42,422 nt of DNA from Oscillospiraceae bacterium (GTDB taxonomy: Bacteria > Bacillota > Clostridia > Oscillospirales > Acutalibacteraceae), in NCBI GenBank assembly GCA_015065725.1, contig SVPV01000019.1:1-42422 (forward strand), in the 5' to 3' direction. Shown one piece after another: positions 1,237-37,935 of this stretch. Each line of letters opens with the position of its first letter. Within the stretch, counting starts at the first letter, position 1. The notes under the pieces were generated by a model, which ran no database searches, had not been told where the DNA came from, and saw only the letters and a program-made list of their open reading frames with translations. The position numbers and the translations under genes were made by a program.

Positions 1237-1887
1237 TTATTTCAATTTTTTCAATTTTAGGGTATTAGCAATAACGATAAGCTGCATTCCTTTTTCAAGA
1301 GGGAGTGCTGGATCAACTGTTGTGGTGATTTTATCATCGTTTCGTATTGCAACTACATTAATGGAATATTTTTTACGAAGACTAAGTTCTATCAGTGTTT
1401 TGCCGACCCACTCATCTCTTACGTCGATTTCTACCATAGACACTTCATCGGAAAGCTCTATCATTTCTGAAAATCCTGATGTAAGCAAATTTTTGGCAAG
1501 TCTTATTCCCGATTCTTTTTCGGGGAAAATCACCCTGTCGGCACCCACACTGCTTAAAATCTTTTGGTGCATTTCATTACCGCATTTAACAATAACGGTG
1601 GGTACGCCCGCTTCCTTACAGAGCATTACCGCCATAACGCTTGCTTCAAGATTACTAGCCATCGCAACAATGACAACGTCGATATTGGATATCCCAAGTT
1701 TTTTTATCGCCTCCGGCTCAGTAATATCAGTGCATTTGCAAACCGGTATAGTTTCGATTGCGTTGTTAACATTATTTTGGTCGATATCAACAGCCAGAAC
1801 TTCTACGCCATTATTTACAAGTTCTTCTGCAACGGCTTTGCCATATCTGCCAAGACCTAATACGGCATATGTTTTATTTATACTCAT
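1237..1887 (-). CDS. ktrA: KtrA/TrkA-type potassium uptake regulatory subunit
   Basis: This 216-residue single-RCK protein is the cytosolic gating ring subunit of a Ktr K+ channel-transporter. The N-terminal Rossmann RCK_N domain (1-130) shows the nucleotide-binding motif GLGRYG near residue 11 and an acidic residue at the end of the second strand (VDID). A TrkA_C domain follows (about 135-216). Members of the family bind ATP/ADP through the Rossmann fold, and many Firmicute homologues bind c-di-AMP through TrkA_C. It has one RCK unit, unlike the double-length E. coli TrkA, hence Ktr-type. The gene follows ktrB by 15 bp in the same operon. Confidence 0.92.
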   Translation of the reverse strand: MSINKTYAVLGLGRYGKAVAEELVNNGVEVLAVDIDQNNVNNAIETIPVCKCTDITEPEAIKKLGISNIDVVIVAMASNLEASVMAVMLCKEAGVPTVIVKCGNEMHQKILSSVGADRVIFPEKESGIRLAKNLLTSGFSEMIELSDEVSMVEIDVRDEWVGKTLIELSLRKKYSINVVAIRNDDKITTTVDPALPLEKGMQLIVIANTLKLKKLK

Positions 1888-1902: not shown

Positions 1903-3261
1903 CTATCCCACACTGATTTCTTCGATGGGGTTTCTTACGATATTCTGATTATCCTTGCTACGCTTAAATGCAACGGCAAGCGATATTGGACCTACTCTGC
2001 CAAGGTACATTGTTATGATAATTATAAGTTTACCTGCACTACCGAGAGATGCCGTAAGATTTCTTGTAAGTCCCACAGTTGCGGTAGCACTAACCGTTTC
2101 ATAAACAATATCCAATGCATTTGCATCCGTCGTCGCAGAGAGCAAAACCGTTGAAGTAAACATTATAATAAAAGACATGCAGGTAACAGCAACTGCTTTG
2201 CTAACAGCCTGTTTTGTGAGCTGTCTGCCAAACACCTCGGTATCCTCTTTATTACGAATAGAAGCAATCGCTGCCACAATAATAACAGCAAATGTGACCG
2301 TTTTAATGCCTCCGGCTGTGCCAACGGGTGAACCGCCGATAAACATCAAAAGCAAACATACAATAGCACTTGCATTAGTGAGGTTTTCCTGCGGCACTGT
2401 CGCAAAGCCAGCGGTTCTCGTTGTAACCGACTGAAACAGGGACACTTCTATTTTTTGAAGCAAAGTATAGTCTCCCATTGTTTGCGGATTATTATATTCA
2501 AACGCAAAAATGAATGCTGCACCCACAAAAATCAAAATTAAAGTTGCTGTAATAGCAATTTTACTGTGTAGGGTAAGATCTCTAAAAAATCTCACTTTCT
2601 TCGTTCGTGACTTTTTCAAGCACTTTAGCACGTCCCACCAAACGACATAGCCGATACCGCCCAAGATAATTAAGGTACAGGTAACAATATTGATTATGGG
2701 ATTGAGTGCATAATCACAAAGGCTGTTTTCGGCAATAATATCAATACCTGCATTGCAAAAGGCAGAAACGGAGGTAAACACCGATATCCATATTCCCTTT
2801 GCACCAAATTGAGGTATAAAAACCGTCATATAGAGCAGAGCACCTATACCTTCTACCATAAATGTTCCAGTTACAACCTTTTTTACAAACCGAACAAGTC
2901 CCGAAAGCGAATTTAGATTAAATGCGTCTTGCAAGAGCAGTCTATCACCTATACCCATTTTCTTGTGCAGAAGTATCATTAAACCTGACATAATGGTGAT
3001 AACACCAAGACCACCGATCTGAATCAGTATCAAAATCACAATCTGTCCAAAAACACTCCAAGAGGAAACGGTCGGTATTACCACCAAGCCCGTAACGCAG
3101 GTGGATGTCGTTGCGGTAAAAAGTGCATCTAAAAAAGAAACAGGTTTTCCATCGGCAGAACTTATGGGAAGTGAAAGTAATAATGTGCCTATCAATATTG
3201 CTATCAAAAAACTAAGCAATATGATGTGTGTTGTAGATACTAGAGGTCTTTGTTTTTTCAT
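1903..3261 (-). CDS. ktrB: KtrB/TrkH-type potassium transporter, membrane subunit
   Basis: This roughly 452-residue polytopic membrane protein belongs to the TrkH/KtrB superfamily, which moves K+ through four membrane-pore-membrane repeats and is often Na+-stimulated. Visible landmarks are the N-terminal segment LLSLPISSADG followed by DALFTATTSTCVTGL (first pore loop), SVSAFCNAG (second), FQSVTTRTAGFATV (third) and ETVSATATVGLTRNL (fourth). I start it at the ATG at 3259-3261 (MKKQRPLV). The frame is open further upstream to a TTG at 3309, but that extension overlaps the conserved leader RNA. It is transcribed from the promoter at 3356-3384 together with ktrA. Confidence 0.92.
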   Translation of the reverse strand: MKKQRPLVSTTHIILLSFLIAILIGTLLLSLPISSADGKPVSFLDALFTATTSTCVTGLVVIPTVSSWSVFGQIVILILIQIGGLGVITIMSGLMILLHKKMGIGDRLLLQDAFNLNSLSGLVRFVKKVVTGTFMVEGIGALLYMTVFIPQFGAKGIWISVFTSVSAFCNAGIDIIAENSLCDYALNPIINIVTCTLIILGGIGYVVWWDVLKCLKKSRTKKVRFFRDLTLHSKIAITATLILIFVGAAFIFAFEYNNPQTMGDYTLLQKIEVSLFQSVTTRTAGFATVPQENLTNASAIVCLLLMFIGGSPVGTAGGIKTVTFAVIIVAAIASIRNKEDTEVFGRQLTKQAVSKAVAVTCMSFIIMFTSTVLLSATTDANALDIVYETVSATATVGLTRNLTASLGSAGKLIIIITMYLGRVGPISLAVAFKRSKDNQNIVRNPIEEISVG

Positions 3262-3288: not shown

Positions 3289-3349
3289 ATAAAAACAAAA
3301 AGGAATCAACTTCCTCTACAGACAGCTGGTTCCATTCGTATTTATCTCC
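3289..3349 (-). promoter_or_regulatory. Conserved leader RNA of ktrBA (candidate cation-responsive riboswitch/attenuator)
   Basis: The predicted 5' UTR (start near 3349) contains a block at 3289-3336 that is almost identical to the leader of the V-ATPase operon (17065-17114). The invariant core reads CUGUCUGUAGAGGAA, preceded by GGAACCAG. The 5' GGAACCA can pair with the downstream UGAUUCC (one mismatch), while AGGAA-GUUGA-UUCCU can form a competing short hairpin directly followed by UUUUUGUUUUU. That is the layout of a transcription attenuator. The ligand is unknown. Because it precedes K+ uptake here and a probable Na+ pump elsewhere, an alkali-ion sensor such as the DUF1646/Na+ riboswitch class is my first candidate. 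Confidence 0.65.
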
Positions 3350-3355
3350 TCGGTC

Positions 3356-3384
3356 ATTATAACACGCTCTATTATTTTAGTCAA
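3356..3384 (-). promoter_or_regulatory. sigma-A promoter of ktrBA
   Basis: On the minus strand TTGACT (3379-3384) and TATAAT (3356-3361) are exactly 17 bp apart. The same pair with the same spacing precedes the V-ATPase leader at 17134-17162. The predicted transcript begins near 3349, giving a UTR of about 88 nt. Confidence 0.8.
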
Positions 3385-4361: not shown

Positions 4362-4382
4362 TATACAACTTCCCTTTGGTTG

Positions 4383-6185: not shown

Positions 6186-6577
6186 TAAAGTAAAATTCCT
6201 CTTTTCTCATACACTTCTGCCGCTTCAAGCACAAGCTTCGCACAGTTTTTTGCATTGTACTTTTCAATAAGTTCCTGTGCCATTGTTACAAGCTCTAACT
6301 TTGTAGAACGGTTTGGACGAAGCTTATCATACATTTTCAAAATAATGTCATCAGGAACGTCTACAAGCTCTGCTGCCCTTTCAAAATTCTTTTCCATAGG
6401 TGCATTGCCGTTTTCCTTTGCAACCTGACCCTGTGCCTTTAGCATTTCCTTTGAAATTTTTATATCATCCGAAGAAACATGCCCCTTCATTACCTCTTCT
6501 AAAGTAATATCGGTCAGCTTCTTGCCTGTTTTTGAAGTTATACTGTCTTTATTATGTACGCCTAATGGGTATTGCAT
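6185..6577 (-). CDS. pduE: Diol/glycerol dehydratase, small subunit (PduE)
   Basis: The small subunit (130 residues from the chosen start) contains the typical LEEVMKGHVSSDDIKIS, FERAAELVDVPDDIILKMYDKLRPNRST and C-terminal YEKRGI segments. I chose the ATG at 6575-6577 because it has GGGAGGG eight bases upstream and overlaps the pduD stop by one base (TAATG). An in-frame ATG five codons earlier lacks an RBS and falls inside pduD. The stop likewise overlaps the pduG start by one base, so D, E and G form a tightly coupled series, fitting the 1:1:1 complex. Confidence 0.9.
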   Translation of the reverse strand: MQYPLGVHNKDSITSKTGKKLTDITLEEVMKGHVSSDDIKISKEMLKAQGQVAKENGNAPMEKNFERAAELVDVPDDIILKMYDKLRPNRSTKLELVTMAQELIEKYNAKNCAKLVLEAAEVYEKRGILL

Positions 6578-7248: not shown

Positions 7249-7260
7249 ACTGTTTTCTCC

Positions 7261-8925
7261 TTATATATCCTGCGGATTGATAATATGAGGAATCTTCTTT
7301 ATTTCTTCCCATCTGCTGCCCTCTACACGATAACCCGTTCCCGGTCCCATATAGTCGTTCGGAGTATTTACGCCCGATAGTACGTTGAAGTCCTTATCAA
7401 GAATTGCAGATGTCTGCATATAGTCACCCACAACCCTCTGCTTTAACATACTTAATACATTATCGGCTATATCCTCATAGCCCGACTCTGCAAGAGCACG
7501 AACAATATCAACGCCTGTAATGCCGCGTTTAAGCACATCTTCGGCTGACATAAGGTCGGCTGTAACATCTCTTGCGGGGGTGTCCTTACTGCCGTGTGCA
7601 TAGGTAACCCTTTCAACCTGCTCATCAGAAACAGGAGATAAGCCAAGATTATTAAATACCGCTTGAACAGCCTTTGCCGCCTTGTTTCTAACCTTTATAA
7701 CCTCTTCTTCGGTTACGGGTCTTAAACCGCCGTCAACCTGCATATCTCTTTGCAGTACATTGTAGTCGTCAAAATCTTCGGCATCGAAATTCGAGCCTGC
7801 AAACATATTGTCATAGTTAGGCTCTGCCGCATAACCCGAGAATATAAAATCAGTACCCGGTAGAAACTGTAGCATTGTTCTAGCCGTTCTACGCATATCT
7901 GAATTTGAAAAGCTTTGGTCGTTTGAAGATGCACACTCAAGTCCCAAAAGTGCGGCTACTAAATTTTCTGCAATAACCTCACGAATACCTGCAGGTACCG
8001 CACCGGGAATACCGATACAGCTTACAGAACCGTTTTGTATACCTTGGCTTCCTGCACCCTTTGTAACATACAAGCAACGGCATTCAAGATAAAGCATAGA
8101 TTTCTTTTCACTGCTGCCCATTAAAACTTCCGAGCCCGCACCCGATGTAAATCTAACCTTTAAGCCCCTTGAAGCATAAGCAGAGTTCAAAAATGCCTTT
8201 GAGTAGGGTGTATCGTCACCGTCAACAAATACGTTTTCTGTTCCGTATACCGACAAGGTTTCAGCGTATGTAGTAAGACCTCTTATTCCAAGCTCAAGCT
8301 CGGTTGCTTCTTCAGCAGAGCATTGGGTTAAAACGCCGGGTCTACCAACCTGTGAGCCGATTAAAAGAGCAATTGCACTAAGCGGTGCATATCTTGCAAC
8401 ACCCATAGTGGTTTCTTCTTCAGCAAATCCACGTAAAGCACCCTCTGCCGCATCAGCAGCGATTTGTACCGGATCGTCCTTTAGGTTGGTTATATGTGCT
8501 TGGTTTCCAGGTGTTTTTCTTGCACGGATTTTCTGCATACCCATCATAAGCTCAACAACATTAAGGTAATTCATAACCTCTACCATTTTGGCAGGAGTTA
8601 TACCCGAAATCAGCTCAATAACGTCTTTTCTTGATACATTTATATCAACAATCATTCTAGCTATCTCTAAAGACGATACAGCCATAGATGCCTCTGTTTT
8701 GTCGATATCTATAGCATAGTCAGCGATAAACTGGTCTATAAAATCAAAATCGCTTCTCTGCTTTCCGTCAAGCTCTACTATTTTTCCGTTCAAAACTTTA
8801 ACAGACGGCTTTGGGTCATAAGGACTGCTCATAGCAACAAAACCCATTTCGGGCCATTCGTTTATAAAACCGTCAAGATTAACCGGTCTTTTATCCAGTG
8901 CTTCTATTCGTTTTGATCTCTCCAT
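7261..8925 (-). CDS. pduC: Coenzyme B12-dependent diol/glycerol dehydratase, large subunit (PduC)
   Basis: The catalytic alpha subunit (554 residues, the usual length) converts 1,2-propanediol or glycerol to propionaldehyde or 3-hydroxypropionaldehyde. All active-site residues known from the Klebsiella oxytoca enzyme are present one position later: Gln142 and His144 in GNQAHITN, Glu171, Glu222, Gln297, Asp336 in SSNDQS and Ser363. Ser302 and Gln337 are also present, so the sequence does not let me decide between diol and glycerol preference. It is the first gene of the operon C-D-E-G-H-O, behind a promoter at 9067-9095. No aldehyde or alcohol dehydrogenase for the next step is in the window. 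Confidence 0.95.
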   Translation of the reverse strand: MERSKRIEALDKRPVNLDGFINEWPEMGFVAMSSPYDPKPSVKVLNGKIVELDGKQRSDFDFIDQFIADYAIDIDKTEASMAVSSLEIARMIVDINVSRKDVIELISGITPAKMVEVMNYLNVVELMMGMQKIRARKTPGNQAHITNLKDDPVQIAADAAEGALRGFAEEETTMGVARYAPLSAIALLIGSQVGRPGVLTQCSAEEATELELGIRGLTTYAETLSVYGTENVFVDGDDTPYSKAFLNSAYASRGLKVRFTSGAGSEVLMGSSEKKSMLYLECRCLYVTKGAGSQGIQNGSVSCIGIPGAVPAGIREVIAENLVAALLGLECASSNDQSFSNSDMRRTARTMLQFLPGTDFIFSGYAAEPNYDNMFAGSNFDAEDFDDYNVLQRDMQVDGGLRPVTEEEVIKVRNKAAKAVQAVFNNLGLSPVSDEQVERVTYAHGSKDTPARDVTADLMSAEDVLKRGITGVDIVRALAESGYEDIADNVLSMLKQRVVGDYMQTSAILDKDFNVLSGVNTPNDYMGPGTGYRVEGSRWEEIKKIPHIINPQDI

Positions 8926-9781: not shown

Positions 9782-10207
9782 TTATCCCAAAGCAACCATG
9801 CTAAATACTAGTGCGAACAACGCAACGGTTTCGCAAAGACCTACAACGGTAATATATTGCGAAAAGCCTTTTCCTGTTTCGGCTAGTGCATCTGCACCTG
9901 CGGCACCTGCTTTTCCTTGATAGATAGCAGAAAGTGCCATAGCTACACCTGACGCAATTCCAAGACCCAGCAAGAATGCAGGGTCAGCGTCAGACGCTTT
10001 CATCTGTTGCATTAAAAGGAAGCCGTAAATGGTCTGAGTAAGCGGTGCACCTGCAAAAACTGTCAATATAAACGGTGCTGCTTTATTATTCATATAACAC
10101 TTTTTCCAAGCACCGATTGATGCCTGACCTGCAATACCGATACCGATAGCCGAGCCGATTGCGGCAATACCCATAACTAATGCTGTTGATAATAATCCTA
10201 AATTCAT
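9782..10207 (-). CDS. ntpK: V-type ATPase subunit K (proteolipid rotor ring)
   Basis: This 141-residue, four-helix proteolipid consists of two tandem hairpins (GSAIGIGIAGQA near 18-29 and GLGIASGVAMALSA near 81-94). It forms the membrane rotor that carries the coupling ion. Residues that bind Na+ in Enterococcus hirae NtpK (Thr64, Gln65, Gln110, Glu139) appear to match Thr57, Gln58, Gln97 and Glu126 here, which predicts Na+ rather than H+ coupling. Only the second hairpin carries the acidic residue, as in E. hirae. It is the last gene of the operon, 22 bp after subunit I, with a strong RBS (AAAGGAG). Confidence 0.93.
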   Translation of the reverse strand: MNLGLLSTALVMGIAAIGSAIGIGIAGQASIGAWKKCYMNNKAAPFILTVFAGAPLTQTIYGFLLMQQMKASDADPAFLLGLGIASGVAMALSAIYQGKAGAAGADALAETGKGFSQYITVVGLCETVALFALVFSMVALG

Positions 10208-10229
10208 AACTATTCTCCTTTAAATTGAT

Positions 10230-12143
10230 TTATTCCTTAAAAGGCTTAAATTTATGTCCGCTCCAGGACATATCTAAATGTGACGAAAACTCTAGTGTGT
10301 TAAGTCTTATTCCGTGAACGATTACCGACAAAACATTTAGTATCATATTAAGTCCGTGACCGAACACCAACAGAACAATCGCAACTATCATAAACAAGAA
10401 ATTGCCCAAAAGCGGTCCTGCCAACTCGTTAACGGTTGCTGATATTGCCGCACCTGCAAGTCCTACTGCCCAAAGGCGTATATAAGAAACGATATCCGAA
10501 AATACATTTACTACACCAAGCAAGACAGAAACTATATTAGTAAGGCTTGAAAGTATAGATTTTATAACACTTCCCTCGTAGTTTGAAAATACAAAGCTTA
10601 AAAGGAAGCCTACTGCTATAAACACAATAGCTACAGTGCCAACAGGAATACCGCCTACTACCAAACCAAAGCTGAACACCTGTGCATTTACAACAAGACT
10701 AAGCACTATATAGTAGATGCCTGTTAGCTGTAATATAGAGCCTATATCTCCAAGCATTTTTAAAGATTTTCTGTTTCGTACAGCCCCCTTAATGTGTGCT
10801 ACAGTAAGTTGAATTAGTGCTAGAGAAAAACAGAATATCTGTAAATTTTGTGCGGTAGTAAGACCAACACCTCTAGAAGTCCAAGGTAGTTGCCAAATCT
10901 TATCTGCATAGACATTTGAAATTACGGGTATCGATAGGCTTTTAAGCCATTCGGGCAGTTGCTCGGGAGAAAGCCCAAACCATGTACAAGTAAGAGTACC
11001 CCACACAACCGTCGATAAACCGAAAAGCAGCACGAGCAAAAACATTGGCGAAACTGTCTTTTTTGAAATGAGCGACTTAATAATCGGAATTGCCGCAACA
11101 CTTGAAATCAACAATCCGTATCCACCGTCACCGAAGATTATTCCAAAAAAGATAAGAATAAATGCTAAAAACCAACCCGAAATATCATACTCGAAATATC
11201 CAGGCACCGTACCCAAGAAGTCGGTTAGCGGATAAATAAGACTTACAAACCTATTGTTTTTAAGCTTAGTAGGAACATTGTCTTCCTCGCTCGGCTCTTC
11301 TAAAAGAAGTCCCCAAGAGTTATTAGCGGCGGTTTCCTTTAGTCTTTCTGCATTTTCCGCCTCAATATATCCTTTAAAATAGGATACACAAATGGCTTTG
11401 CTGTTATCGTCCGACAGGCTTTCGTTTTCCATGCCCGTAGCATAGGTTTCAAACTCAATTTCCTTATGGTACTCGTTTATAGCTTTTTTAAAGCTACAAA
11501 CAAAGCTTGCGTAACTTGAAAGCTTGTCGTCTATTGTTTTAATTCGATCATTTGCTTCGTCGATTTTTTGCCTCATTTCATCAGTAGACATCTGAGGTAA
11601 TGCTAAACGATAGCCATTTAAAGAGTCTAAAGCTAAAGCCTCACTCTCAAAATCGGTTTTAAGCAACAAGAATTTAACCGAAGATTTATTTTCACAAAGC
11701 TTTACGGTTTTTAAATCGCCACAAAGCTTTTTATATTCGGCTTTGGGCATTTCGTAAAACGAAATATCAATTCCGTTTAAAGCTAGCTCGCCGATACTGT
11801 CCGGCTCAAGCTCGCCCCAGTCTTTTAACCGCTCAAGCTCTGTATTAAGTGAAACCAATTCGGACTTATACGCCTTTTTTTCTTCGGCAAGAGCCGCAAT
11901 CTCGGTTGCAATAGCCAAAGATTTTACAGTGTCTATCTCCTTAGACTCAGCTTCCTTGTTTTTTCCTACTGCGAAAATTGCATTTTCAAGTAAGGAGATA
12001 TTACTTTTAAGCTCTAAAAGCCGTTCGCCCGAGCCCTCGGTTATTTCAATGTGAATAATCCCTAATTTGCGAAGTTCTTTTAGTGTTTGTTCTTTTTTGT
12101 CTCCCATAGTTATGAGGGAAACTTTTTTCATAGGTACTATCAT
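10230..12143 (-). CDS. ntpI: V-type ATPase subunit I (stator, a-type subunit)
   Basis: This 637-residue subunit has a cytoplasmic, coiled-coil-rich N-terminal half (to about 330) and a C-terminal membrane half with several helices, the first beginning near FLAFILIFFGIIFGDGGYG. The motif SYIRLWAVGLAGAAIS carries the essential arginine that faces the rotor ring. It provides the half-channels for ion passage. The length is near the family norm. The start overlaps the end of subunit D by 4 nt, so translation is coupled. Confidence 0.92.
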   Translation of the reverse strand: MIVPMKKVSLITMGDKKEQTLKELRKLGIIHIEITEGSGERLLELKSNISLLENAIFAVGKNKEAESKEIDTVKSLAIATEIAALAEEKKAYKSELVSLNTELERLKDWGELEPDSIGELALNGIDISFYEMPKAEYKKLCGDLKTVKLCENKSSVKFLLLKTDFESEALALDSLNGYRLALPQMSTDEMRQKIDEANDRIKTIDDKLSSYASFVCSFKKAINEYHKEIEFETYATGMENESLSDDNSKAICVSYFKGYIEAENAERLKETAANNSWGLLLEEPSEEDNVPTKLKNNRFVSLIYPLTDFLGTVPGYFEYDISGWFLAFILIFFGIIFGDGGYGLLISSVAAIPIIKSLISKKTVSPMFLLVLLFGLSTVVWGTLTCTWFGLSPEQLPEWLKSLSIPVISNVYADKIWQLPWTSRGVGLTTAQNLQIFCFSLALIQLTVAHIKGAVRNRKSLKMLGDIGSILQLTGIYYIVLSLVVNAQVFSFGLVVGGIPVGTVAIVFIAVGFLLSFVFSNYEGSVIKSILSSLTNIVSVLLGVVNVFSDIVSYIRLWAVGLAGAAISATVNELAGPLLGNFLFMIVAIVLLVFGHGLNMILNVLSVIVHGIRLNTLEFSSHLDMSWSGHKFKPFKE

Positions 12144-12772
12144 AATGAATAAACCTCCCCGTCGGAAGCCTCAGCATTACGAAGGGCTATTTTGCGTTTG
12201 GATATTTTAGAACGCACTACGGCACTGACCTGTTGGTCTGCCATATAAATAGATATTTTTTTGATATTTTCCTCTGTTTCAGGGATTTTAACCTTTTCAA
12301 ACAGATTAACTCTTTGCGAGGTTGAAAGCAACTCTTCCTCCAAAAGCCTTACCTGTTCATCGAGTACCTCAGCCTCTAAATCAAGTGATATTGCCTTTTC
12401 CATATGGTTTGCAGCTATATCCACCCAAAGCGGAGTTTCATATAGGTTGTAATCTCCTCTTTTAAAATCCGCTCCCTCAAAGGTAGGAATATCAACACCC
12501 GCAATATTTGCTTTTCCTTTACGGATATTGCTAACGGTGATAATTCCTTCGGGAAAAGCATCCTTTTCACTAAAAACAGCAATCCAATCCATAAAACCGT
12601 TTTCGATTCGCTCTTTTTCCTGTCGCACGGCTTTTGCTTTCGCCCTAATTGTGCGAATTTCCGAATGAAGCTGCTGTTTTTTAAGTGTCAGAGTAGGCAA
12701 ATATCTGCGGTACATTTTAAGTGCGTCTTTTTGTACCTTTAACTCGTTTTTAGTTAGTTTGATTTTTGCCAA
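12140..12772 (-). CDS. ntpD: V-type ATPase subunit D (central stalk)
   Basis: This 210-residue subunit is rich in charged residues and predicted long helices, with the family N-terminal pattern KIKLTKNELKVQKDALKMYRRYLP and a C-terminal helix with RVNLFEKVKIP. It forms the coiled-coil shaft that transmits rotation from the A3B3 head to the K ring. It lies 15 bp after subunit B and overlaps subunit I by 4 nt. No F subunit gene, its usual partner, is seen in the operon. Confidence 0.9.
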   Translation of the reverse strand: MAKIKLTKNELKVQKDALKMYRRYLPTLTLKKQQLHSEIRTIRAKAKAVRQEKERIENGFMDWIAVFSEKDAFPEGIITVSNIRKGKANIAGVDIPTFEGADFKRGDYNLYETPLWVDIAANHMEKAISLDLEAEVLDEQVRLLEEELLSTSQRVNLFEKVKIPETEENIKKISIYMADQQVSAVVRSKISKRKIALRNAEASDGEVYSL

Positions 12773-12787
12773 AACTACCGTCCTCCC

Positions 12788-14089
12788 TTACCCTTTAGGC
12801 CAAAATTCTTCAGTAAGGTCTGACTTAATTCCGGTTTCGTCCCTTTCGAAGCACTCGGCTAAAATATCCCAGCCTAAATCAAGTGCATCTTCAAGCGGTA
12901 GATTGACCGATAAATCCATTAATTTATTTTCAAAAAGCTCACCGTATTTTAATAGCTTTTCATCCCAACGGTTCATAGAAAAGCCCATGTTTTTCTTTTC
13001 GAGCGTTTCTTTATAAGAAGAATACATACGAATCATTGCATCCATAAGTGCTCTATGGTCTTTTCTTGTTTTTCCGTTTACGTTTTGCTTTAGTCGTGAA
13101 AGAGAGCCAAACGGTTCTATACGGCCGCCTTTTAAATAATACTGTCCCTCTGTGATATAACCTGTGTTATCGGGAACGGGGTGTGTTACGTCGTCACCGG
13201 GCATAGTAGTAACCGCCAAAACGGTAACCGAGCCTGAATTCGCAAAGTCTACAGCCTTTTCGTAACGTGCTGCAAGCTGTGAATAAAGGTCACCGGGATA
13301 TCCTCGGTTAGAGGGCACCTGTTCCTGTGTAATTGCTATTTCCTTCATAGCATCGGCGAAGTTGGTCATATCGGTAAGCAGCACCAATACGTCCTTGTCC
13401 TCCAGAGCAAACTGCTCGGCTGTAGCCAATGCCATATCGGGAATCATCATACATTCAACAGTCGGGTCCGAAGCGGTATGAATAAACATAACCGTCTTAC
13501 TGAGTGCCCCACCCTTTGAAAGTTCATCCTTAAAGTATAGGAAATCATCGTATTTAAGTCCCATACCGCCAAGCACTATTACGTCTGCCTCTGCCTGCAT
13601 TGCAATACGGGCAAGAAGTTGGTTATAAGGCTCACCGGAAATAGAGAAAATCGGTAATTTTTGAGATACAACCAGTGTGTTGAACATATCAATCATCGGA
13701 ATATTCGTTCTCATCATTCGATTAGCAAGAATACGTTTGGTAGGATTAACGGACGGTCCGCCTATAGCTTTCATATTTTCTGTAAGTGCGGGGCCCTTAT
13801 CACGAGGCTCTCCCGATCCGTTAAAGATACGGCCTAACAAATCCTCACTAAAAGACACCCGCATTTCGCGACCTAAAAAGCGTACCTCGTCGCCTGTAGA
13901 AACACCTTGACCGCCGGCGAAGACCTGCAGAGATACAACATCTCCCTCAATCTTGTTAACCTGTGCCAACGATTTGCCGAAGCGTGTGTTGATTTGAGCC
14001 AATTCCTTATACTGCACACCGCTTGCCTTTACGGTTATAACATTACCGGTGATAGATTCAATTTTGTTATAAACTTTATTCATTCTCAT
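12788..14089 (-). CDS. ntpB: V-type ATPase subunit B (non-catalytic head)
   Basis: This 433-residue regulatory nucleotide-binding subunit shows [49 protein letters not shown] and [23 protein letters not shown], all typical of V/A-ATPase B. It has no Walker A lysine, as expected for the non-catalytic subunit. The ATG at 14089 overlaps the TGA of subunit A by 4 nt and has AAGGA about 8 bases upstream. Confidence 0.94.
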
Positions 14090-15855
14090 TCACCGTCCTT
14101 CAATAATCGTTCTGCCGTGCTTTCTAATTTACCGTCACCCTCGCGGTAGAGCTTATCAATTTCAGCCTCTGCCTTTTTAAAGGCGTCGCTCTCGAACTCG
14201 GTATAATTCCAGTCGATAAATCTCTGTCTCATACGGTTGAAGAATACGCGTGCATCATCCTTGCTCTCGAGTGCGTACTCACTGCCTAAAACAGTAATAA
14301 GCTTATCTGTAACATACCTTTGACGTGAAGTTCCGCAATTAGCTTCAATCAAATCAAAAGAGTTTTGCTGTAAATATACGGCATCTAGCATTTCGGATTT
14401 CAAATAAACAACATAGTCCGAAATTGATGTACCCTCTTCACCTACAACCTTCATCATCGAGCCAATCTCGTCACCGTGATGAAGAATGCCTTTACAAAAA
14501 TCAGATTTTTCGGTATCTATTACACTTTTATATTTTGACCAAGAAATAAGCGGGTCTATTGCGGGATATTTTCTTGCATCCGAGCGTTCACGGGAAAGTC
14601 CGTGGAATGCTCCTACAACCTTGAGGGTTGCCTGTGTTACAGGCTCCTCAAAGTTACCGCCTGCAGGGGAAACGGTACCGCCGATTGTAACAGAGCCTGT
14701 CGTACCGTCTAGCAAACGTACATAGCCTGCTCTCTCGTAGAATGATGCGATATAGGATTCCAAATATGCGGGGAAAGCCTCTTCACCGGGAATTTCCTCA
14801 AGTCTGCCCGACATTTCACGAAGTGCCTGTGCCCAACGGGATGTAGAGTCGGCAAGCAGTAGAACATTAAGGCCCATTTGACGATAATATTCGGCAAGGG
14901 TTACCGAGGTGTACACCGAAGCCTCACGGGAAGCTACCGGCATTGAGGAAGTGTTACAAATAATTATGGTACGTTCCATAAGAGAACGTCCTGTTTTAGG
15001 GTCGGTAAGCTCGGGGAACTCGGTTAGTGTTTCAACAACCTCACCCGCACGCTCACCACAAGCCGCAATTATTACTATATCAACATCTGCATATTTTGAT
15101 GTGGTGTGCTGTAGCACAGTTTTACCCGCACCGAACGGTCCTGGGGTACAATAGGTACCGCCTTTAGCTACAGGAAAAAAGGAGTCAACAAGACGTACCT
15201 TGGTTTCCATAGTTTCCACAGGTGCCAATCTCTCACTATAGCATCTAATAGCTCGTTTAACCGGCCATTTAAAAGACATACTAACCGAAATGTCACGTCC
15301 ACGCTCATCGGTTATAACCGCTACGGTTTCCTTAACGGTATATTCGCCCTTTTGTGCTATTGATTTTAAGGTATAGTTGCCAAGCAAATAAAAGGGTATA
15401 AAAATTTTGTGTGTAAAGGCACCCTCGGGGACAGTTCCTATATACTCACCCGCACGCAAGGTATCTCCTACCTGTGCTGTAGGTGTGAACTCCCATTTTT
15501 TATCGGAATCTAGTCCGTCAGCATAGTTACCACGCTCTAAAAACCAACCTGCCTGTTCTGCTAATACAGGAAGCGGATTTTGCAGTCCGTCGTATATTTG
15601 TCCAAGCAAACCGGGACCTAGCTCTGCCGACAGCATATCGCCCGTAAATTCAACCTCATCACCGCATTTTATACCGTCGGTCATTTCATAAACCTGTATT
15701 TGTGCGATATTTCCTTTTATGCGGATAACCTCACTTTTAAGTGCGGTATCAGCCACCAAAACATAGCATATCTCGTTCATTGAAACATTGCCGTCGAATT
15801 CAACCGACACCAAGTTTCCGTTTATGCTTACAACCTTTCCTTTATTTTCGGTCAT
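14086..15855 (-). CDS. ntpA: V-type ATPase subunit A (catalytic head)
   Basis: The catalytic subunit (589 residues) has the Walker A loop GPFGAGKTV near residue 235, [12 protein letters not shown], Walker [17 protein letters not shown] and the V-ATPase-specific non-homologous insertion in the first third (about 110-190). It overlaps the preceding DUF2764 gene and the following subunit B gene by 4 nt each. The length matches A-subunits of bacterial V-ATPases (580-600). Confidence 0.95.
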
Positions 15856-16409
15856 TGTTTAGCCTCCAACCTATCTCCGTTTAAAATGGAGTTATAAATA
15901 TTTTTGTACGCCGTTTCGCCCGACTGTGTATCAAACAGTCTTTTACGTAAAAGCAGTTTGAGTTTTATGCCGTAATACAGAATATATTCCTCTGAAAAAA
16001 TATCCATCGGCCTTAGTGCTTCTAAAATACTGAGCCTATAGCGGTTAAGATATTCCTCCGCTTCCATCGGATTTTCCATTTCTGCCGCAGTGCTTGCAGC
16101 CCTCATATATTCAACAGGCAAAATAACATTTCCAACATTAAACGGCTTGTTCATTTTCTCTGCCCTGACTTTACCGAGAGCCAGTCTTAAATTTCGTTCA
16201 CTTTCATTCCAAGCATTTATTAATGCCGAATTTGCCACCTCAAGATTTATGGGTGGTACAAGTGTCATTTGTTGTATTTCTTTTTGTGCCTTTTTAACCA
16301 AATGCTGATTACACAGTTCTAAAAAACGTTCTTCAGTAATGGGAAGCGGCGTATTTTCACCAACCGCATCCAAGGACGGCAACTGAGATACTAAATAATA
16401 TTCAGCCAT
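15852..16409 (-). CDS. DUF2764-like V-ATPase-associated subunit
   Basis: This 185-residue helical protein (start AEYYLVSQLPSLD) sits between subunits E and A. It matches what I know as DUF2764, found at this position in the V-ATPase operons of spirochaetes, chlamydiae and Bacteroidetes. Those operons lack a recognisable subunit C, and DUF2764 is thought to take its place in linking the stator to the rotor shaft; that role is an inference. It has no membrane segment or catalytic motif. It overlaps subunit A by 4 nt and follows subunit E by 5 bp. Confidence 0.8.
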   Translation of the reverse strand: MAEYYLVSQLPSLDAVGENTPLPITEERFLELCNQHLVKKAQKEIQQMTLVPPINLEVANSALINAWNESERNLRLALGKVRAEKMNKPFNVGNVILPVEYMRAASTAAEMENPMEAEEYLNRYRLSILEALRPMDIFSEEYILYYGIKLKLLLRKRLFDTQSGETAYKNIYNSILNGDRLEAKQ

Positions 16410-16414
16410 TCTAC

Positions 16415-17020
16415 TTACGCCTCTTTCAAAAGCTTAGTAACCTTAGGACTAAGATAATTTGAAAGCATATCTACAACCGCCTCGGCAGAATAATCATAAT
16501 ATGCACCGCCGTTGTTAAGGGCTATACGGAAGCCACCATCAAAATTATCATTTGCCTTTAAGGTAATGCCCTTTAACATTCTTTCTTTAAGAGCCGAAAG
16601 CACAGCTTTTTCAAGCGAATTCAAATCATTGCTATTTAAAATCACCGTTATATCTTCTGCATCAGAATTGCCTGCCCAACCCTCAACAACCTTTACAATC
16701 AGTTGTGCAAATACTTCGGATGAGTACACTTCGTTAACATTTTCACCTATTATTAAGTTTAATTCTCTTGTTACGCTTTCCCTAAAATATATCAGCAGAT
16801 TACGTCCCGCTTGACGAATGGCATCCTCGCTTGACTTTACCATACGTTCGTTTTCAGCTTTAGCTGTTGACAAAATTTTATCTGCCTCTGCTTTCGCTTC
16901 AGCAACAATTTTCTGAGCCTTATCCTTTGCTTCATTAATTATAGCCTCAGCCTCAGTTTCGGCGGCCTCTACACCGTCTTTTTTAATTTGGTCAATAAGC
17001 TCTTGGAGTTGTATTTCCAT
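16415..17020 (-). CDS. ntpE: V-type ATPase subunit E (peripheral stalk)
   Basis: The stator-stalk subunit (201 residues) begins MEIQLQELIDQIKKDG, followed by a long Ala/Glu/Lys-rich coiled coil (about 18-75, with INEAKDKAQKIVAEAKAEADKI) and a globular C-terminal part. I start it at the ATG at 17018-17020, preceded by AAAAAAGGAG. An in-frame upstream ATG at 17074 would run into the U-rich part of the leader RNA and has no RBS. It is the first gene of the operon, as in the spirochaete-type arrangement. No separate G/H stalk subunit is visible. Confidence 0.88.
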   Translation of the reverse strand: MEIQLQELIDQIKKDGVEAAETEAEAIINEAKDKAQKIVAEAKAEADKILSTAKAENERMVKSSEDAIRQAGRNLLIYFRESVTRELNLIIGENVNEVYSSEVFAQLIVKVVEGWAGNSDAEDITVILNSNDLNSLEKAVLSALKERMLKGITLKANDNFDGGFRIALNNGGAYYDYSAEAVVDMLSNYLSPKVTKLLKEA

Positions 17021-17064: not shown

Positions 17065-17127
17065 ATAAAAACAAAAAAGAACCAACGTTCCTCTACAGAC
17101 AGCTGGTTCCTTTCAACATTTTTATTT
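17065..17127 (-). promoter_or_regulatory. Conserved leader RNA of the V-ATPase operon (candidate cation-responsive riboswitch/attenuator)
   Basis: The predicted 5' UTR (about 107 nt) contains a block at 17065-17114 matching the ktrBA leader at 3289-3336. The core CUGUCUGUAGAGGAA and flanking GGAACCAG are unchanged, and the tail UUUUUUGUUUUUAU is kept. GAACCA near the 5' end pairs perfectly with UGGUUC, while GGAAC-GUUG-GUUCU forms an alternative short hairpin just before the U-tract. Stem bases differ from the ktrBA copy in ways that keep the short hairpin paired. This supports a structured attenuator rather than a protein site. The ligand is not determinable from sequence alone. Confidence 0.65.
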
Positions 17128-17133
17128 TTTGTT

Positions 17134-17162
17134 ATTATATCACTCTTTGATTTTTAAGTCAA
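17134..17162 (-). promoter_or_regulatory. sigma-A promoter of the V-ATPase operon
   Basis: TTGACT (17157-17162) and TATAAT (17134-17139) are 17 bp apart on the minus strand, identical in both boxes and in spacing to the ktrBA promoter. The start is expected near 17127. Confidence 0.8.
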
Positions 17163-17260: not shown

Positions 17261-19213
17261 TTAATTCATAGCCTTTTCTTTTTTAGCTGAAATATATTGT
17301 ACAAGGAATACTATTAGAACTAATGCAAAACCGATTGCATCTGTAACGATGCCCGGAATTATAAGCAAAAGTCCGCCGATAATACTAACAATACGTTCAT
17401 ACCATTTCATATTACGCATAAAATATCCTTCGAGTGCCGCACCAACTGCAAGAATTCCCACTATGGACGAAACAGCAATTAGGATAACACTCCATACTGT
17501 AACACCCTCGCCAATAAATAGCATTTCGGGACTTAATGCAAAGATATAAGGCACAATGAATGCGGCAATTGCAAGCTTAGTTGAGGTAAATGCCGTTTTT
17601 ATTGGGTTTGCCTGAGCAATAGCCGCACCTGCATAAGCTGCCAGAGCAACAGGCGGGGTAAGGTCGGCAACAATACCAAAGTAAAACACAAAGAAGTGTG
17701 CCGCAATCATAGGAACGCCCATTTGTACAAGAATGGGGGCACAGGTTGCCGCCATAATACAGTAATTCGCGGTTGTAGGAACACCCATTCCAAGAACAAT
17801 ACAACAAAGCATTGTGAGGAAAAGTGCTATTATAACCTGATTACCCGCAAGGGCAACGATTCCGTTAAAGAGCATATATGCAAGGCCTGTAACACCTATT
17901 ACACCTGCAACAATACCTGCAATACCGCAAGCTACTGCAACTGTAATCATACCCTGACCGCCTGCCGCCAAAGCTTCTACGAAACGCTTAGGCGTAATAC
18001 GGTGTTCTTTGTCGAACATACTAACAACTATTGCAACAACAATAGCGATAGCGGCAGCGTAGGCGATTGAACGCTTGCTTGTACCCACAAGATATATTAA
18101 AAGAATCAAAGGAAGCAGGAGATAGCTTTGCTTTAAAAGCGGCAAAAGCTTCGGACGTTCCTCTTTTGTAAGTCCGCGAAGTCCCTCTTTCTTTGCCTCA
18201 AGGTGAACCGTAATAAATACGCCCGCAAAATAAAGTATAGCGGGAAGAATTGCACGAAGAACAATATTTGAATAAGGAACGCCTACTGTTTCTGCCATAA
18301 GAAATGCAGCGGCACCCATTATAGGCGGCATAATCTGTCCGCCGGTAGAAGCAGCAGCTTCTGCAGCAGCCGCAAACTCGGGCTTGTAGCCTGTTTTTTT
18401 CATGAGCGGAATTGTAACGGCACCCGAACCTACAGTATTAGCAACCGAGGAGCCTGAAACCATTCCCTCAAGAGCGGAGGCAACAACCGCAACCTTTGCA
18501 GGACCGCCCGAAAAACGTCCCACAAGAGCATTTGCAATGTTTATAAAGAAATCCGCAATTCCCGTTCTTTCAAGGAAAGCACCGAAAATTATGAACATTA
18601 CAATATACTTTGAACAAACATTAACAGGGGTTGAGAGTATACCCTCTTTAGAATAGAAAAGAGTTTTTACGATATTAGTTACTCTGGCCCACATATCAGG
18701 GTTAGTAGAGCCCCAAATAAGTGCATATACAAGTAATGCACCTGCAACACAAAGTATCGGAAGTCCAACACTTCTTCTGCAAAGCTCTGCCAAGCATAAA
18801 ATACCTACTATACCGATTGCTACCTCAAGATTATTAATTCGGCTAAGCGAAATAATTGATTTTGCATTAACGGTAAAGTATAAAAACGCCCCTGTACCTA
18901 AAACTAAAAGAATAATATCGTACCAAGGCATATAATTTACCTTTTGTTTACCTTTTCTTGCAGGAAACACAATATAACCTATAAAGACAATAAATGCCAT
19001 AAAGGTTGTAAGCCTTACCTCGTCAAGCCAAGTAGCAAAAAGCGTTACATAAATACAGAACGCCGAAAACAAAGCAAGAATACCGGTAACAACCGTCTTA
19101 GGCACACCCTGCCATACCCTCGTGTTAGATTCTCGGTCATATTTTTTCATAACCTCTTCAACATTCATTGGCTCTGTACTTTGAAGCACTGATTTTTTCT
19201 TAAATAAACTCAT
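17261..19213 (-). CDS. TRAP transporter, fused permease (TAXI type)
   Basis: This 650-residue polytopic protein fuses the small (DctQ-like) and large (DctM-like) TRAP permease subunits, the arrangement seen with TAXI-type binding proteins. Large-subunit landmarks are GAFLERTGIADFFINIA, SALEGMVSGSSVANTVGSG and LGMGVPTTANYCIMA. TRAP systems use the Na+ gradient to import small organic acids and similar solutes; the substrate here is unknown. The C-terminal region (about 580-650) adds two more hydrophobic segments. The partner receptor gene is immediately upstream (88 bp). Confidence 0.92.
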   Translation of the reverse strand: MSLFKKKSVLQSTEPMNVEEVMKKYDRESNTRVWQGVPKTVVTGILALFSAFCIYVTLFATWLDEVRLTTFMAFIVFIGYIVFPARKGKQKVNYMPWYDIILLVLGTGAFLYFTVNAKSIISLSRINNLEVAIGIVGILCLAELCRRSVGLPILCVAGALLVYALIWGSTNPDMWARVTNIVKTLFYSKEGILSTPVNVCSKYIVMFIIFGAFLERTGIADFFINIANALVGRFSGGPAKVAVVASALEGMVSGSSVANTVGSGAVTIPLMKKTGYKPEFAAAAEAAASTGGQIMPPIMGAAAFLMAETVGVPYSNIVLRAILPAILYFAGVFITVHLEAKKEGLRGLTKEERPKLLPLLKQSYLLLPLILLIYLVGTSKRSIAYAAAIAIVVAIVVSMFDKEHRITPKRFVEALAAGGQGMITVAVACGIAGIVAGVIGVTGLAYMLFNGIVALAGNQVIIALFLTMLCCIVLGMGVPTTANYCIMAATCAPILVQMGVPMIAAHFFVFYFGIVADLTPPVALAAYAGAAIAQANPIKTAFTSTKLAIAAFIVPYIFALSPEMLFIGEGVTVWSVILIAVSSIVGILAVGAALEGYFMRNMKWYERIVSIIGGLLLIIPGIVTDAIGFALVLIVFLVQYISAKKEKAMN

Positions 19214-19301
19214 TAGTGATTATATCCTCAATTCAAAAATTTTGGCTGTAATTGAAACCAATTACAGCCAATAATACTAATCAAAACAAAACCGATAGTT
19301 T

Positions 19302-20276
19302 TTATTTAACTGTAATTCCCTTTTCGGCAAAATACTTAATTGCACCGGGATGGAAAGGAGCTGTCATACCGTCTGTGGCATTTTGGAGAGAAAGCTCTGA
19401 ACCCTTTGCGTGAGCCTCCTTGATATCATCAATATTATCAAAGATAGACTTTGTTATTTCGTAAACATCGTCTTCGGTTGCTGATTTGCTTACAATAAGA
19501 GTAGCCTTAACTGTAACGGTTGTAACATCTTCTGTTTGACCGTTATATGTATTTGCAGGAATCTTAAATGTTGTGTAGTAGGGAGAATCCTCCATAAGCT
19601 TTTCTGCAATAACACCGTCAATAGGAATTAAATATGCCTTAGAAGTTGTGCAAAGCTCCTGAATAGCAGGGGTAGGTGGACCTGCAACGATAAATGCAGC
19701 ATCGATTTTGCCGTCTTTTAGTGCATCAGCAGACTCAGCAAAGGACTGATACTGAGGCTTAATGTCGGTTTCTTTAAGACCTGCGGCAGCAAGAATATCA
19801 ATAGCGTTAAAGTAAACGCCCGAGCCTGCTGCACCTATAGAAACCTTTTTGCCCTTTAAGTCAGCAACGGTTTTAATATCGGGATTCATTGTAAGAAGCT
19901 GAACAGCCTCTGCATAAAGACCGCCGATTACGCGGAAGGTATCTATCTTACCCTCAACCTCAAAAGAGCGGCTGCCGTCACACGCATAAGCCATAACGTC
20001 AGACTGAACAGTTGCAAGCTGATAGTCGCCTGTATCAATACCAAGAATATTTGTTTTAGAACCGTCGGTAGAAACAACCTTTACAGTAATTCCAGACTCG
20101 TTTTTAATTTGAGTTCCAAGAATTCCGCCGTAACCGTAATATGTACCTGCTGTTCCGCCTGTACCCATAGTCATAGTTGTTTTTTTAGCAGAGCTTCCGT
20201 CCTTGCCGCTGCCGCCGCAAGCAGAAAGACCAACCATCATAACTAATGCTAAAACAAGTGCTAAAAGTTTTTTCAT
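19302..20276 (-). CDS. TAXI-family TRAP solute receptor (lipoprotein)
   Basis: This extracytoplasmic binding protein (324 residues from the chosen ATG) has a lipoprotein signal MKKLLALVLALVMMVGLSAC, with the lipobox cysteine at 20, followed by a Gly/Ser/Lys linker. The TAXI hallmark TMGTGGTAGTYYGYGG begins the mature domain; later motifs include VSIGAAGSGVYFNA and DAAFIVAGPPTPAI. I chose the ATG at 20274-20276 because AAAGGAG lies seven bases upstream; the longer frame to 20297 has no RBS. It delivers solute to the fused permease encoded next. Confidence 0.93.
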   Translation of the reverse strand: MKKLLALVLALVMMVGLSACGGSGKDGSSAKKTTMTMGTGGTAGTYYGYGGILGTQIKNESGITVKVVSTDGSKTNILGIDTGDYQLATVQSDVMAYACDGSRSFEVEGKIDTFRVIGGLYAEAVQLLTMNPDIKTVADLKGKKVSIGAAGSGVYFNAIDILAAAGLKETDIKPQYQSFAESADALKDGKIDAAFIVAGPPTPAIQELCTTSKAYLIPIDGVIAEKLMEDSPYYTTFKIPANTYNGQTEDVTTVTVKATLIVSKSATEDDVYEITKSIFDNIDDIKEAHAKGSELSLQNATDGMTAPFHPGAIKYFAEKGITVK

Positions 20277-20310
20277 AATTAATTCTCCTTTAAACAAAGT
20301 ATTTATAATT

Positions 20311-20339
20311 AATATAACATAATTAAACAGTCTTGTAAA
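20311..20339 (-). promoter_or_regulatory. Promoter of the TAXI/TRAP operon
   Basis: TTTACA (20334-20339) and TATATT (20311-20316) are 17 bp apart, inside the 72-bp gap after putP. The TRAP genes can therefore be expressed separately from the symporter gene. Confidence 0.6.
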
Positions 20340-20348
20340 GAGTGGGCA

Positions 20349-21923
20349 TTATGCAACGCCGTTTTTAACCTCGTCAAACTCCTTTTGAATTTCCTCTGAC
20401 GGTGCTTTAGTGAGCAGTGAAACCACCACAATACAAATAGCCGAGAATATAAACGCGGGTAATAATTCATAAATGTTTAGGAATGCCAAAGAAGCATTTG
20501 CTACGCCGATAGGACGAACAAGCAAATTCCAAACAAATACCATTACGCCGCCGCCTACCATACCTGCAACAGCACCCGCTCTCGTAGTACGCTTCCAGAA
20601 AAGTGAGAACAGCATAATAGGTCCGAATGTAGCACCGAAGCCTGCCCAAGCAAAGCTTACGATTTTAAATATAACACTCTTTTCATCAAGTGAAATCAAA
20701 ATAGCTATAAGAGCAATAGCAAGAAGTGTAATACGTGTAACTATCATAACCTGTTTATCAGTAGCTTTTTTACGGCAGATACCTTGATAGATATTTTTAG
20801 CAAGAGCCGATGCCGCAATAAGCAAATAAGAATCGGAAGAACTGATAGTAGCCGCTAAAATTCCTGCCATAACAAAGCCTGCGATTATTGGCGGGAATAA
20901 TTTTGTTGAAAGCAATATAAATATGTTTTCTGCTGTAGACTTTGTTAAAAGCTCTGTAGGATAAAGCGAACGGCCAACAACACCTATAAATACTGCAACT
21001 GCCAAGGATATCAAAACCCAAACAGTAGCTATTCTGCGTGAGCGAGTAAGCTCTTTTTCATCGCGGATTGCCATAAAGCGTAAAAGCACCTGCGGCATAC
21101 CAAAGTATCCAAGTCCCCAAGCTGTTGTGGAAAGAACGGTTAAAAATCCGTAAGCACCTGCCTCGCTAAACAAGGGCTTGCCATCTGCTATCTGCTGTAC
21201 ACCGTCTACAACTTCTGGATTTGCAATACCGAAAAATTCAAAGAAACCAGGTATTGCTTTTGCATTATCAACTACAACACCAAGTCCACCTGCAGAAACA
21301 GTACCAACTATCACAACTAGTGTTAAAGCAACAATCATAACTATAGCCTGCATAAAGTCGGAAACGCTTTCTGCCAAAAATCCGCCTACAAGTGTATAGA
21401 TAAGCACGAATACCGCACCTAAAATCATCATGGGTATATAAGGCAAATTGAAAAGGGTTGAAAACAGCTTGCCGCAGGTAACAAAGCAGCTTGCCGCATA
21501 AACTGTAAAGAATATGAGAATAAACACAGCCGCAATGGTCATTACAACCTTTTTCTTTTCGTGGAAACGGTTAGAAAAATATTCCGGCAAGGTGATAGCT
21601 CCGCCCGCTTTTTCGCTATATCTACGCAAACGCTTTGATACGATAAGCCAGTTAAAATATGTACCTACCGCAAGACCTATTGCAGTCCATGCTGCATCGG
21701 CAATACCGCACCAATACGCTACACCGGGAAGTCCCATCAAAAGCCAACCCGACATATCCGATGCCTCAGCACTCATAGCAGTAACCCATGGTCCTAAGCT
21801 TCTGCCTCCCAAAAAGAATTCACCCGAATTCTTATTAGCACGCTTTGCAAATGTAATGCCGATTATAATTACTGCCGACATATACAAAAGCATTGCAACT
21901 AAAATTTGTATAGTATCTACCAT
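20349..21923 (-). CDS. putP: Sodium:solute symporter, PutP (proline) type
   Basis: This 524-residue, roughly 13-helix member of the SSS family imports L-proline (or a related solute) with Na+. The signature FFLGGRSLGPWVTAM followed by SAEASDMSGWLLMGLPG (about 37-66) is that of PutP. Further support comes from GAITLPEYFSNRF, GGFLAESVSDFMQ and SSSDSYLLIAASALAKNIY. The length fits (E. coli PutP is about 500). It has its own promoter, and the TAXI receptor gene follows on the same strand. Confidence 0.9.
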   Translation of the reverse strand: MVDTIQILVAMLLYMSAVIIIGITFAKRANKNSGEFFLGGRSLGPWVTAMSAEASDMSGWLLMGLPGVAYWCGIADAAWTAIGLAVGTYFNWLIVSKRLRRYSEKAGGAITLPEYFSNRFHEKKKVVMTIAAVFILIFFTVYAASCFVTCGKLFSTLFNLPYIPMMILGAVFVLIYTLVGGFLAESVSDFMQAIVMIVALTLVVIVGTVSAGGLGVVVDNAKAIPGFFEFFGIANPEVVDGVQQIADGKPLFSEAGAYGFLTVLSTTAWGLGYFGMPQVLLRFMAIRDEKELTRSRRIATVWVLISLAVAVFIGVVGRSLYPTELLTKSTAENIFILLSTKLFPPIIAGFVMAGILAATISSSDSYLLIAASALAKNIYQGICRKKATDKQVMIVTRITLLAIALIAILISLDEKSVIFKIVSFAWAGFGATFGPIMLFSLFWKRTTRAGAVAGMVGGGVMVFVWNLLVRPIGVANASLAFLNIYELLPAFIFSAICIVVVSLLTKAPSEEIQKEFDEVKNGVA

Positions 21924-37906: not shown

Positions 37907-37935
37907 ATTATATTATAAATCAAATTGTCTGTAAA
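37907..37935 (-). promoter_or_regulatory. Promoter of the DUF951-prfA operon
   Basis: TTTACA (37930-37935) and TATAAT (37907-37912) are 17 bp apart on the minus strand, about 40 bp before the DUF951 start. Confidence 0.7.

Follow-up and report, generated by a model that had tools for sequence, protein, structure and literature searches.

The 42,422-nucleotide stretch of DNA analysed here, hereafter the window, raises the question of why a V-ATPase operon and a TrkH/TrkA K+ uptake operon should begin with the same short leader, and what this leader might do. Both units lie on the minus strand, and each is laid out as a promoter with identical boxes (TTGACT and TATAAT, 17-bp spacer), a short A/U-rich stretch, one hairpin, a U-tract and the start of the first gene (Table 1). 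An earlier note on this DNA had pointed to the common promoter and leader block, which are directly confirmed in the sequence, and had proposed a very small ion sensor whose aptamer overlaps its own terminator.

Table 1. Genes and leader elements of the two operons in the window
Feature	Positions	Strand	Basis
V-type ATPase subunit E, first gene of the operon	16415..17020	-	NCBIfam NF002424, E 9.5e-64, 214.7 bits (curated cut-off 241)
Remainder of V-ATPase operon: DUF2764, A, B, D, I, K	9782..16409	-	Pfam; K above cut-off of NCBIfam NF005174
-35 box TTGACT, V-ATPase operon	17157..17162	-	sequence; promoter statistics across relatives
-10 box TATAAT, V-ATPase operon, 17-bp spacer	17134..17139	-	sequence; promoter statistics across relatives
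Terminator hairpin 5' arm AAAGGAACCAGC, V-ATPase leader	17102..17113	-	fold; covariation
Conserved tip CUGUCUGUAGAGGAA(C), V-ATPase leader; possible apical CUG[UCUG]UAG and purine stretch AGGAA	17087..17102	-	sequence matches, comparison
Terminator hairpin 3' arm, V-ATPase leader	17075..17086	-	fold; covariation
U-tract UUGUUUUU, V-ATPase leader; conserved UG within the tract	17067..17074	-	sequence
TrkH K+ uptake protein	1903..3261	-	Pfam PF02386; TIGR00933 above cut-off
TrkA-type NAD-binding regulatory subunit	1237..1887	-	Pfam PF02254/PF02080
-35 box TTGACT, Trk operon	3379..3384	-	sequence
-10 box TATAAT, Trk operon, 17-bp spacer	3356..3361	-	sequence
Terminator hairpin 5' arm AATGGAACCAGC, Trk leader	3325..3336	-	sequence, fold, covariation
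Conserved tip, Trk leader, 15-mer identical to the V-ATPase copy	3311..3325	-	sequence match
Terminator hairpin 3' arm, Trk leader, C-A and U-U mismatches	3299..3310	-	sequence, fold
U-tract UUGUUUUU, Trk leader	3291..3298	-	sequence

The rest of the window holds a diol/glycerol dehydratase operon (large, medium and small subunits and reactivase; 4032-8925, minus strand) between the two leader-bearing operons, with a cobalamin adenosyltransferase gene at 3516-4016. The region preceding the V-ATPase operon (17261-21923, minus strand, upstream) encodes DctM, a TRAP transporter protein, together with a sodium:solute symporter, which fits an energy metabolism based on sodium. Near each contig end lies a pair of direct repeats of 60-64 nt, about 0.8-0.9 kb apart (133-192/1077-1136 and 41525-41588/42330-42393; 80% and 86% identity, respectively).

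The 15-mer core CTGTCTGTAGAGGAA occurs exactly at 17088-17102 and 3311-3325, and these are its only copies with up to two mismatches in the whole genome. With up to three mismatches the window holds five matches, against 0.61 expected from shuffles, the three non-exact ones carrying three mismatches each; a near-match at 37925, found without terminator context, was counted as chance. Around the core, the two leader blocks share 81% identity over 47 nt, with a longest unbroken run of 23 nt, which is less than the almost unchanged block of about 48 nt described in the earlier note. The long hairpin proposed there is real, with folding z-scores of -3.48 and -3.02 in the two window leaders and covariation across relatives. 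Its changes between the copies had been said to keep pairing; this fails at two places in the Trk stem, a C-A (3329/3306) and a U-U (3334/3301) mismatch, both paired in the V-ATPase copy, and the covariation becomes convincing only among relatives. Since the Trk stem carries these mismatches, the window alone gives no proof of covariation.

The suggestion that the leader could belong to a known class found no support in Rfam 15, as the whole window gave no match at gathering thresholds. At E ≤ 10 the two leaders retrieved unrelated families far below gathering and at chance level (best E 0.25 and 0.67), and at E ≤ 1 no match overlapped the motif in nine further loci. Rfam contains models for the HMP-PP, guanidine-IV and c-di-AMP (ydaO) riboswitches; the latter two matched neither the window, nor both leaders, nor the nine further loci, and HMP-PP matched neither the window nor the leaders, whose gene contexts are not thiamin genes. 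The Na+-I (DUF1646) model RF03071 found nothing over its cut-off in the 70 genomes of the genus, searched with stricter filters; its best score was 27.3 bits against a cut-off of 40.5, at a site that reads as coding sequence. By the tests run here, the leader is not a Na+-I member. A description of the motif was not found in the open-access literature, supplements and subscription papers aside, and the hairpin family appears to be an undescribed cis-regulatory RNA.

Homologous leaders do precede related operons elsewhere, as searches of the genus, order, class and family revealed (those over more than 40 genomes used stricter filters). In the genus, a model built from six sequences found 13 places with scores of 41 bits or more, spread over 12 of the 70 genomes; six of the places are its own seeds and seven are new, and all 13 precede V-ATPase subunit E or TrkH. 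Positive genomes numbered 26 of 216 in family f21 and 21 of 394 in the order at E ≤ 1e-5, the latter including three seed-holding genomes and one false match (L207). Across the class, five of 391 genomes were positive (the window's own and four assigned to the same class only), all at V-ATPase operons, and across the phylum the window's genome stood alone among 398 (0 of 397 others). A pattern scan with one genome per species returned at least 117 stretches; these were selected on the 5' arm and tip, so that tip conservation among them exists by construction, whereas the 3' arm, tract and following gene were unselected. Among the matches listed (80 of at least 117), titles name Clostridia, Clostridiales, Oscillospiraceae and bins of a similar kind from metagenomes, chiefly of the guts of hoofed animals. 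Pattern and model matches overlap, both collections holding one genome per species (L071, for example, is the place in G061); pooled, they yield 142 distinct hairpin sequences, one of them truncated, all in Clostridia. The bare 15-mer is not specific by itself: with at most one mismatch it occurs at 31 places in 149 genomes, where only seven of the 30 places fetched have the hairpin, and its reversed control pattern matches 24 times in the same genomes.

That a compact leader is common to V-ATPase and K+ uptake operons is borne out by these same-operon homologues. Four genomes have copies before two operon types, namely V-ATPase and Trk in G000, G101 and G229 (L209 was placed in G101 by deduction from tallies) and Trk and ATP synthase in G1349. 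The leader is not obligatory for these genes: within the genus, numerous trkH genes lack it, as do some V-ATPase genes. A subunit E match was obtained in 19 of the 70 genomes and 13 are window-like; the leader stands before nine of these, is absent from the 190 nt read in G025, G038 and G055, and in G048 the region is cut off by the contig end. TrkH is present in 49 of the 70, with a clear leader before only four and a diverged one before another (G037). Two leaders have unusual arrangements. At about 5012-5070 (minus strand) of L161, a Trk-type leader with an apparent trkH start, as judged by eye, stands before V-ATPase subunit E, which suggests leader transfer between operons. In L092, at about 2129-2208 (plus strand), the conserved tip occurs twice in tandem within one leader, like a partial duplication of the hairpin.

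For the comparative analysis, alignments were drawn from 134 sources (100 + 34), omitting duplicates and nine apparent chance matches (L083, L111, L128, L137, L149, L157, L169, L170 and L175); alignment A3 contains one antisense false row (L121:6765-6821), and counts for columns past 28, in which two alignments are mixed, were set aside. In 99 distinct rows, 90.9% of the cells of the 12-bp stem are paired, compared with a shuffled mean of 86.4. The covariation expected of the long stem is found: 53 cells are changed on both sides yet remain paired, against 14.8 in shuffles, none of 500 shuffles reaches this number, and the signal is lost when the partner strand is slid. Two of five measures fall within the shuffles (pairs changed on both sides, 107 of 500; further pair types, 84 of 500), and relatedness, which was not removed from these statistics, inflates the others. 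One pair occurs as AU, UA, GC and GU, and the outer pair beside the tract as AU, UA and GC. Because the long stem covaries, we conclude that it functions as RNA.

G-U pairs are frequent, reaching 71 of 99 rows at one stem pair and 10 and 5 rows at two others, which argues against a DNA palindrome, as this would not need them. An imperfect inverted repeat near a promoter could in principle be a DNA operator bound by a repressor or an activator. This reading, already disfavoured by such symmetry-breaking pairs, is also at odds with the asymmetric tip and with the position and downstream sequence of the element. In 55 of 57 unique regions, the strand of the element carries a promoter upstream of it that matches 10 or more of the 12 consensus bases and ends 15-31 nt ahead of the stem; its spacer is 17 bp in 54 of the 55, and shuffled regions attain that score in 6%. 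Among the at least 117 pattern matches, 102 of the 106 that are gene-linked have at least seven T in the 14 bases after the stem. We thus regard an operator as extremely improbable. Promoter, stable hairpin, U-tract and gene follow one another as in an attenuator built on an intrinsic terminator, and promoter and stem lie so close together that an additional aptamer or antiterminator would hardly fit upstream. The hairpin itself is most likely the site of control. A UGY element in or near the tract is found in all but eight of 124 sequences, one of the eight being truncated, and we suspect a pause signal. An NUG in the tract could open a leader peptide, as in a leader-peptide attenuator; judged by eye, its frames and stops differ between sequences, and this candidate was provisionally set aside.

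The most striking part of the hairpin is its tip, about 15 nt long, with the near-invariant consensus CUG[N]CUG[Y]AGAGRA. In 56 of the 59 model-found loci (L207, L267 and L281 dropped), the mean pairwise identity of its 13-nt core is 0.87, compared with 0.40 over 22 nt ahead of the hairpin and 0.37 over 30 nt past the tract, a conservation that is partly selection, as the models favour sequences bearing the tip. It nevertheless far exceeds that of the flanks, which speaks against a terminator that is not regulated and serves just to damp a strong promoter. Such a device would have the same tandem of strong promoter and terminator-like hairpin, and covariation occurs in ordinary terminators as well; yet when the lower-scoring genus matches were read (L043-L060, n = 18), 17 resembled ordinary terminators lacking the tip and only L047 proved to be a (diverged) TrkH leader. 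A plain terminator is consequently very unlikely in our view. The L047 leader (1488-1546, minus strand, in G037) has a promoter nearly equal to that of G027, but its tip, AUA[UCUG]UAU, has diverged strongly; the copy may be degenerate or may have an altered specificity. An invariant sequence shared by several operons would also suit the target of a trans-acting small RNA; such a small RNA would have to be conserved to the same degree in many families, and we rate this reading the least probable of all the readings weighed here.

How the tip itself might fold was examined by comparison of the copies; deviants were read from the 142 sequences, with the truncated and mis-registered row L144 discounted. 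The earlier note had placed the core between two mutually exclusive hairpins, and the shorter of these (GGAAC/GUUCU) did not survive the comparison: 74.8% of its cells are paired against a shuffled mean of 77.5%, and all 500 shuffles are at least as good. No conserved structure competing with the terminator was supported in the comparative pairing test. Our lead is an apical CUG[NCUG]YAG helix that may sit directly on the stem, with AGRA as a purine bulge, a model drawn from the few deviant sequences: L047 swaps two of three pairs compensatingly, and L203 and L206 keep the helix and break the alternative. One pair fails in L040, L199, L205, L208 and L283; the helix is missed by RNAalifold, and its thermodynamic probability is at most 0.1 in all eight folded sequences. 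An inner NCU/AGR pairing, two pairs of which are predicted by RNAalifold and which RNAfold gives at 0.79 or more in five of eight sequences, was rejected since it is broken in six deviants (L047, L203, L206, L273, L277 and L284). Pairing of CAG with the second CUG, which would compete with the terminator stem, is broken in L211 and L273, with one compensating change (L203). Two contacts outside the hairpin were weighed as well. A loop-to-tract pseudoknot (GYA/UGY) can form in the majority of rows, but the Y present in the loop is no guide to that in the tract; for a loop-to-tail CUG/YAG pairing, YAG follows the tract in 54 of 92 unique sequences (of 106) against 30.5 in shuffles, an enrichment confounded by relatedness.

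A tip that is short and invariant, carried by a stem that varies in sequence yet stays paired, also suits a protein site. An ion- or energy-sensitive, sequence-specific RNA-binding protein could read the tip and favour or block termination, and the narrow taxonomic spread, confined to Clostridia, would fit such a reader, as would the lack of support for a competing RNA fold. We consider this attenuator read by a protein the main rival of direct sensing by the RNA, and a real possibility, if short of probable.

What the leaders precede bears on the signal. The pattern matches, at least 117, lie before TrkH (53), V-ATPase subunit E (50), the F-type ATP synthase operon (3) or none of these (11). 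Nine of the last have three to six of seven stem pairs and zero to four T in the next 14 bases and were taken as chance, one (L182) is cut by a contig end, and one (L125) resembles L215. The 59 model-found loci lie before TrkH (30), V-ATPase E (21) and ATP synthase (5), leaving three unclassified: the false match L207; L215, before V-ATPase subunit I; and L283, before a calcium/sodium antiporter gene (TIGR00367 above cut-off and Pfam PF01699; one case). The best PDB matches of the ATP synthase c subunit of L107 are 4bem, 3zk1 and 1yce, which we take to be c-rings of the Na+ type, 1yce being listed as sodium ion specific. The V-ATPase K subunit of the window aligns weakly with Enterococcus hirae NtpK (2bl2; E 0.004) and keeps T, Q, Q and E, presumably the Na+ ligands. 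From these resemblances, the rotary ATPases behind the leaders look to be of the Na+ type. The gene set as a whole is one of sodium biology, like that behind Na+-I riboswitches.

A V-ATPase and a Trk system also meet in G054, where trkH begins one base after the V-ATPase K stop codon and I, K, trkH and trkA stand in a row at one contig end, with the leader followed by E, DUF2764, A and B at another; both ends encode the B/D junction, and a single operon from leader to trkA is likely from this arrangement. The copies of the junction (L286 1-240 and L287 6051-6191) differ in similarity to the window proteins, and the bin may hold mixed strains or two copies. Such a unit would be comparable with the E. 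hirae ntp operon, where an Na+-V-ATPase and the TrkH-like gene ntpJ are co-expressed and induced by Na+ and/or alkaline pH (PMC12604602). Unlike in E. hirae, 14 kb separates the V-ATPase and Trk units of the window genome, and each unit has a leader to itself; in E. faecalis OG1RF, ntpJ likewise lies far from the remaining ntp genes (PMC12604602). Our regulon argument depends mainly on the shared leaders.

Membrane energetics is likewise common to V-ATPase, F-ATPase and Trk, and the RNA could directly sense something other than an alkali ion, for instance c-di-AMP, pH, or an energy signal such as ATP/ADP. The known role of c-di-AMP in K+ signalling counts for such a ligand; the absence of a c-di-AMP riboswitch match in the Rfam scans described above counts against it, and the single Ca2+/Na+ antiporter and the Na+-type-looking rotors point to Na+ instead. 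On balance we find a non-alkali ligand unlikely.

Several known systems resemble the leader in form or in targets. In form, the HMP-PP (thiS) riboswitch (PMC6478431) is likewise a terminator stem with a U-run and an abnormally conserved loop, has no separate aptamer domain and leads one functional gene set. Terminator stem, conserved loop and U-run all recur in our motif, which differs in its genes and its lack of an Rfam match, and which is described here as a single predicted hairpin. Terminator hairpins with conserved tip nucleotides are also seen in the guanidine-IV riboswitch, whose ligand-bound tip precludes termination, and in the HRC-8-4 motif (PMC8632094); the latter differs in belonging to Rhodobacterales near cco genes, and our motif matches no Rfam family. 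In targets, the closest system is Na+-I (PMC9337991), found before V-type ATPase genes (in enterococci and clostridia), parts of ATP synthase and cation transporters, and acting by transcription termination, as we propose here. Two extended stems (P1 and P2) and an aptamer competing with the terminator set Na+-I apart from our motif, a single covarying hairpin 15-31 nt after the -10 box. The Na+-II and Li+-I/II (nhaA) motifs (PMC9646797) are RNA sensors of alkali ions as well, those for Li+ mostly before nhaA transporter genes; they differ in their genes, and the Rfam scans of our motif gave no match. The nqrA-II motif (PMC11109978), a candidate riboswitch suspected to sense Na+ or a signal of a cation gradient, has the tie to the Na+ gradient in common with our leader and precedes another gene; the two sequences were compared by Rfam scans only.

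Taken together, we tentatively favour, from the combined analyses and with somewhat less than an even chance, a terminator-embedded attenuator that would be a direct small-ligand riboswitch of the ON type, its ligand most likely Na+. RNA polymerase would start at the near-consensus promoter and, within about 55-70 nt of the predicted start site, would make one hairpin and a U-tract, where it would stop unless the tip is engaged, a termination step that we infer from the observed anatomy, covariation and position. The near-invariant tip would be the recognition domain, perhaps through the apical helix and its purine bulge. A ligand bound by the tip while the 3' arm is still unfinished would block the terminator and turn the genes ON, in the manner of the HMP-PP and guanidine-IV riboswitches. 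The ligand, the sign of control and direct sensing by the RNA are likewise what we infer. As the regulon combines Na+ export or energy coupling with K+ uptake, Na+ would be the most likely ligand, followed by K+ or a linked signal (pH, c-di-AMP). The earlier proposal of an alkali-ion sensor overlapping its terminator thus stands in spirit, through targets that include Na+-type-looking rotary ATPases, TrkH and one Ca2+/Na+ antiporter, and loses its specific second hairpin.

We present the leader as a well-supported cis-regulatory RNA family with coherent target genes. It is possible, though we would lean against it at present, that it is a new class of alkali-cation riboswitch of less than 50 nt, with its aptamer wholly in the tip of its own terminator. 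Such a class would govern an Na+/K+ regulon (TrkH, the V- and F-ATPases and a Ca2+/Na+ antiporter) among gut Clostridia, and the search of their genus detected no Na+-I riboswitch (0 of 70 genomes). To our knowledge, a K+-selective motif would, if true, be the first K+ riboswitch. Should the ion be read by the RNA without a partner, the motif would rank with the smallest ion sensors in nature and would reveal how alkali ions can be told apart by a terminator tip. The family would also offer a handle on the sodium bioenergetics of uncultured gut Clostridia and may serve as a compact element for reporting Na+ or K+ inside cells.
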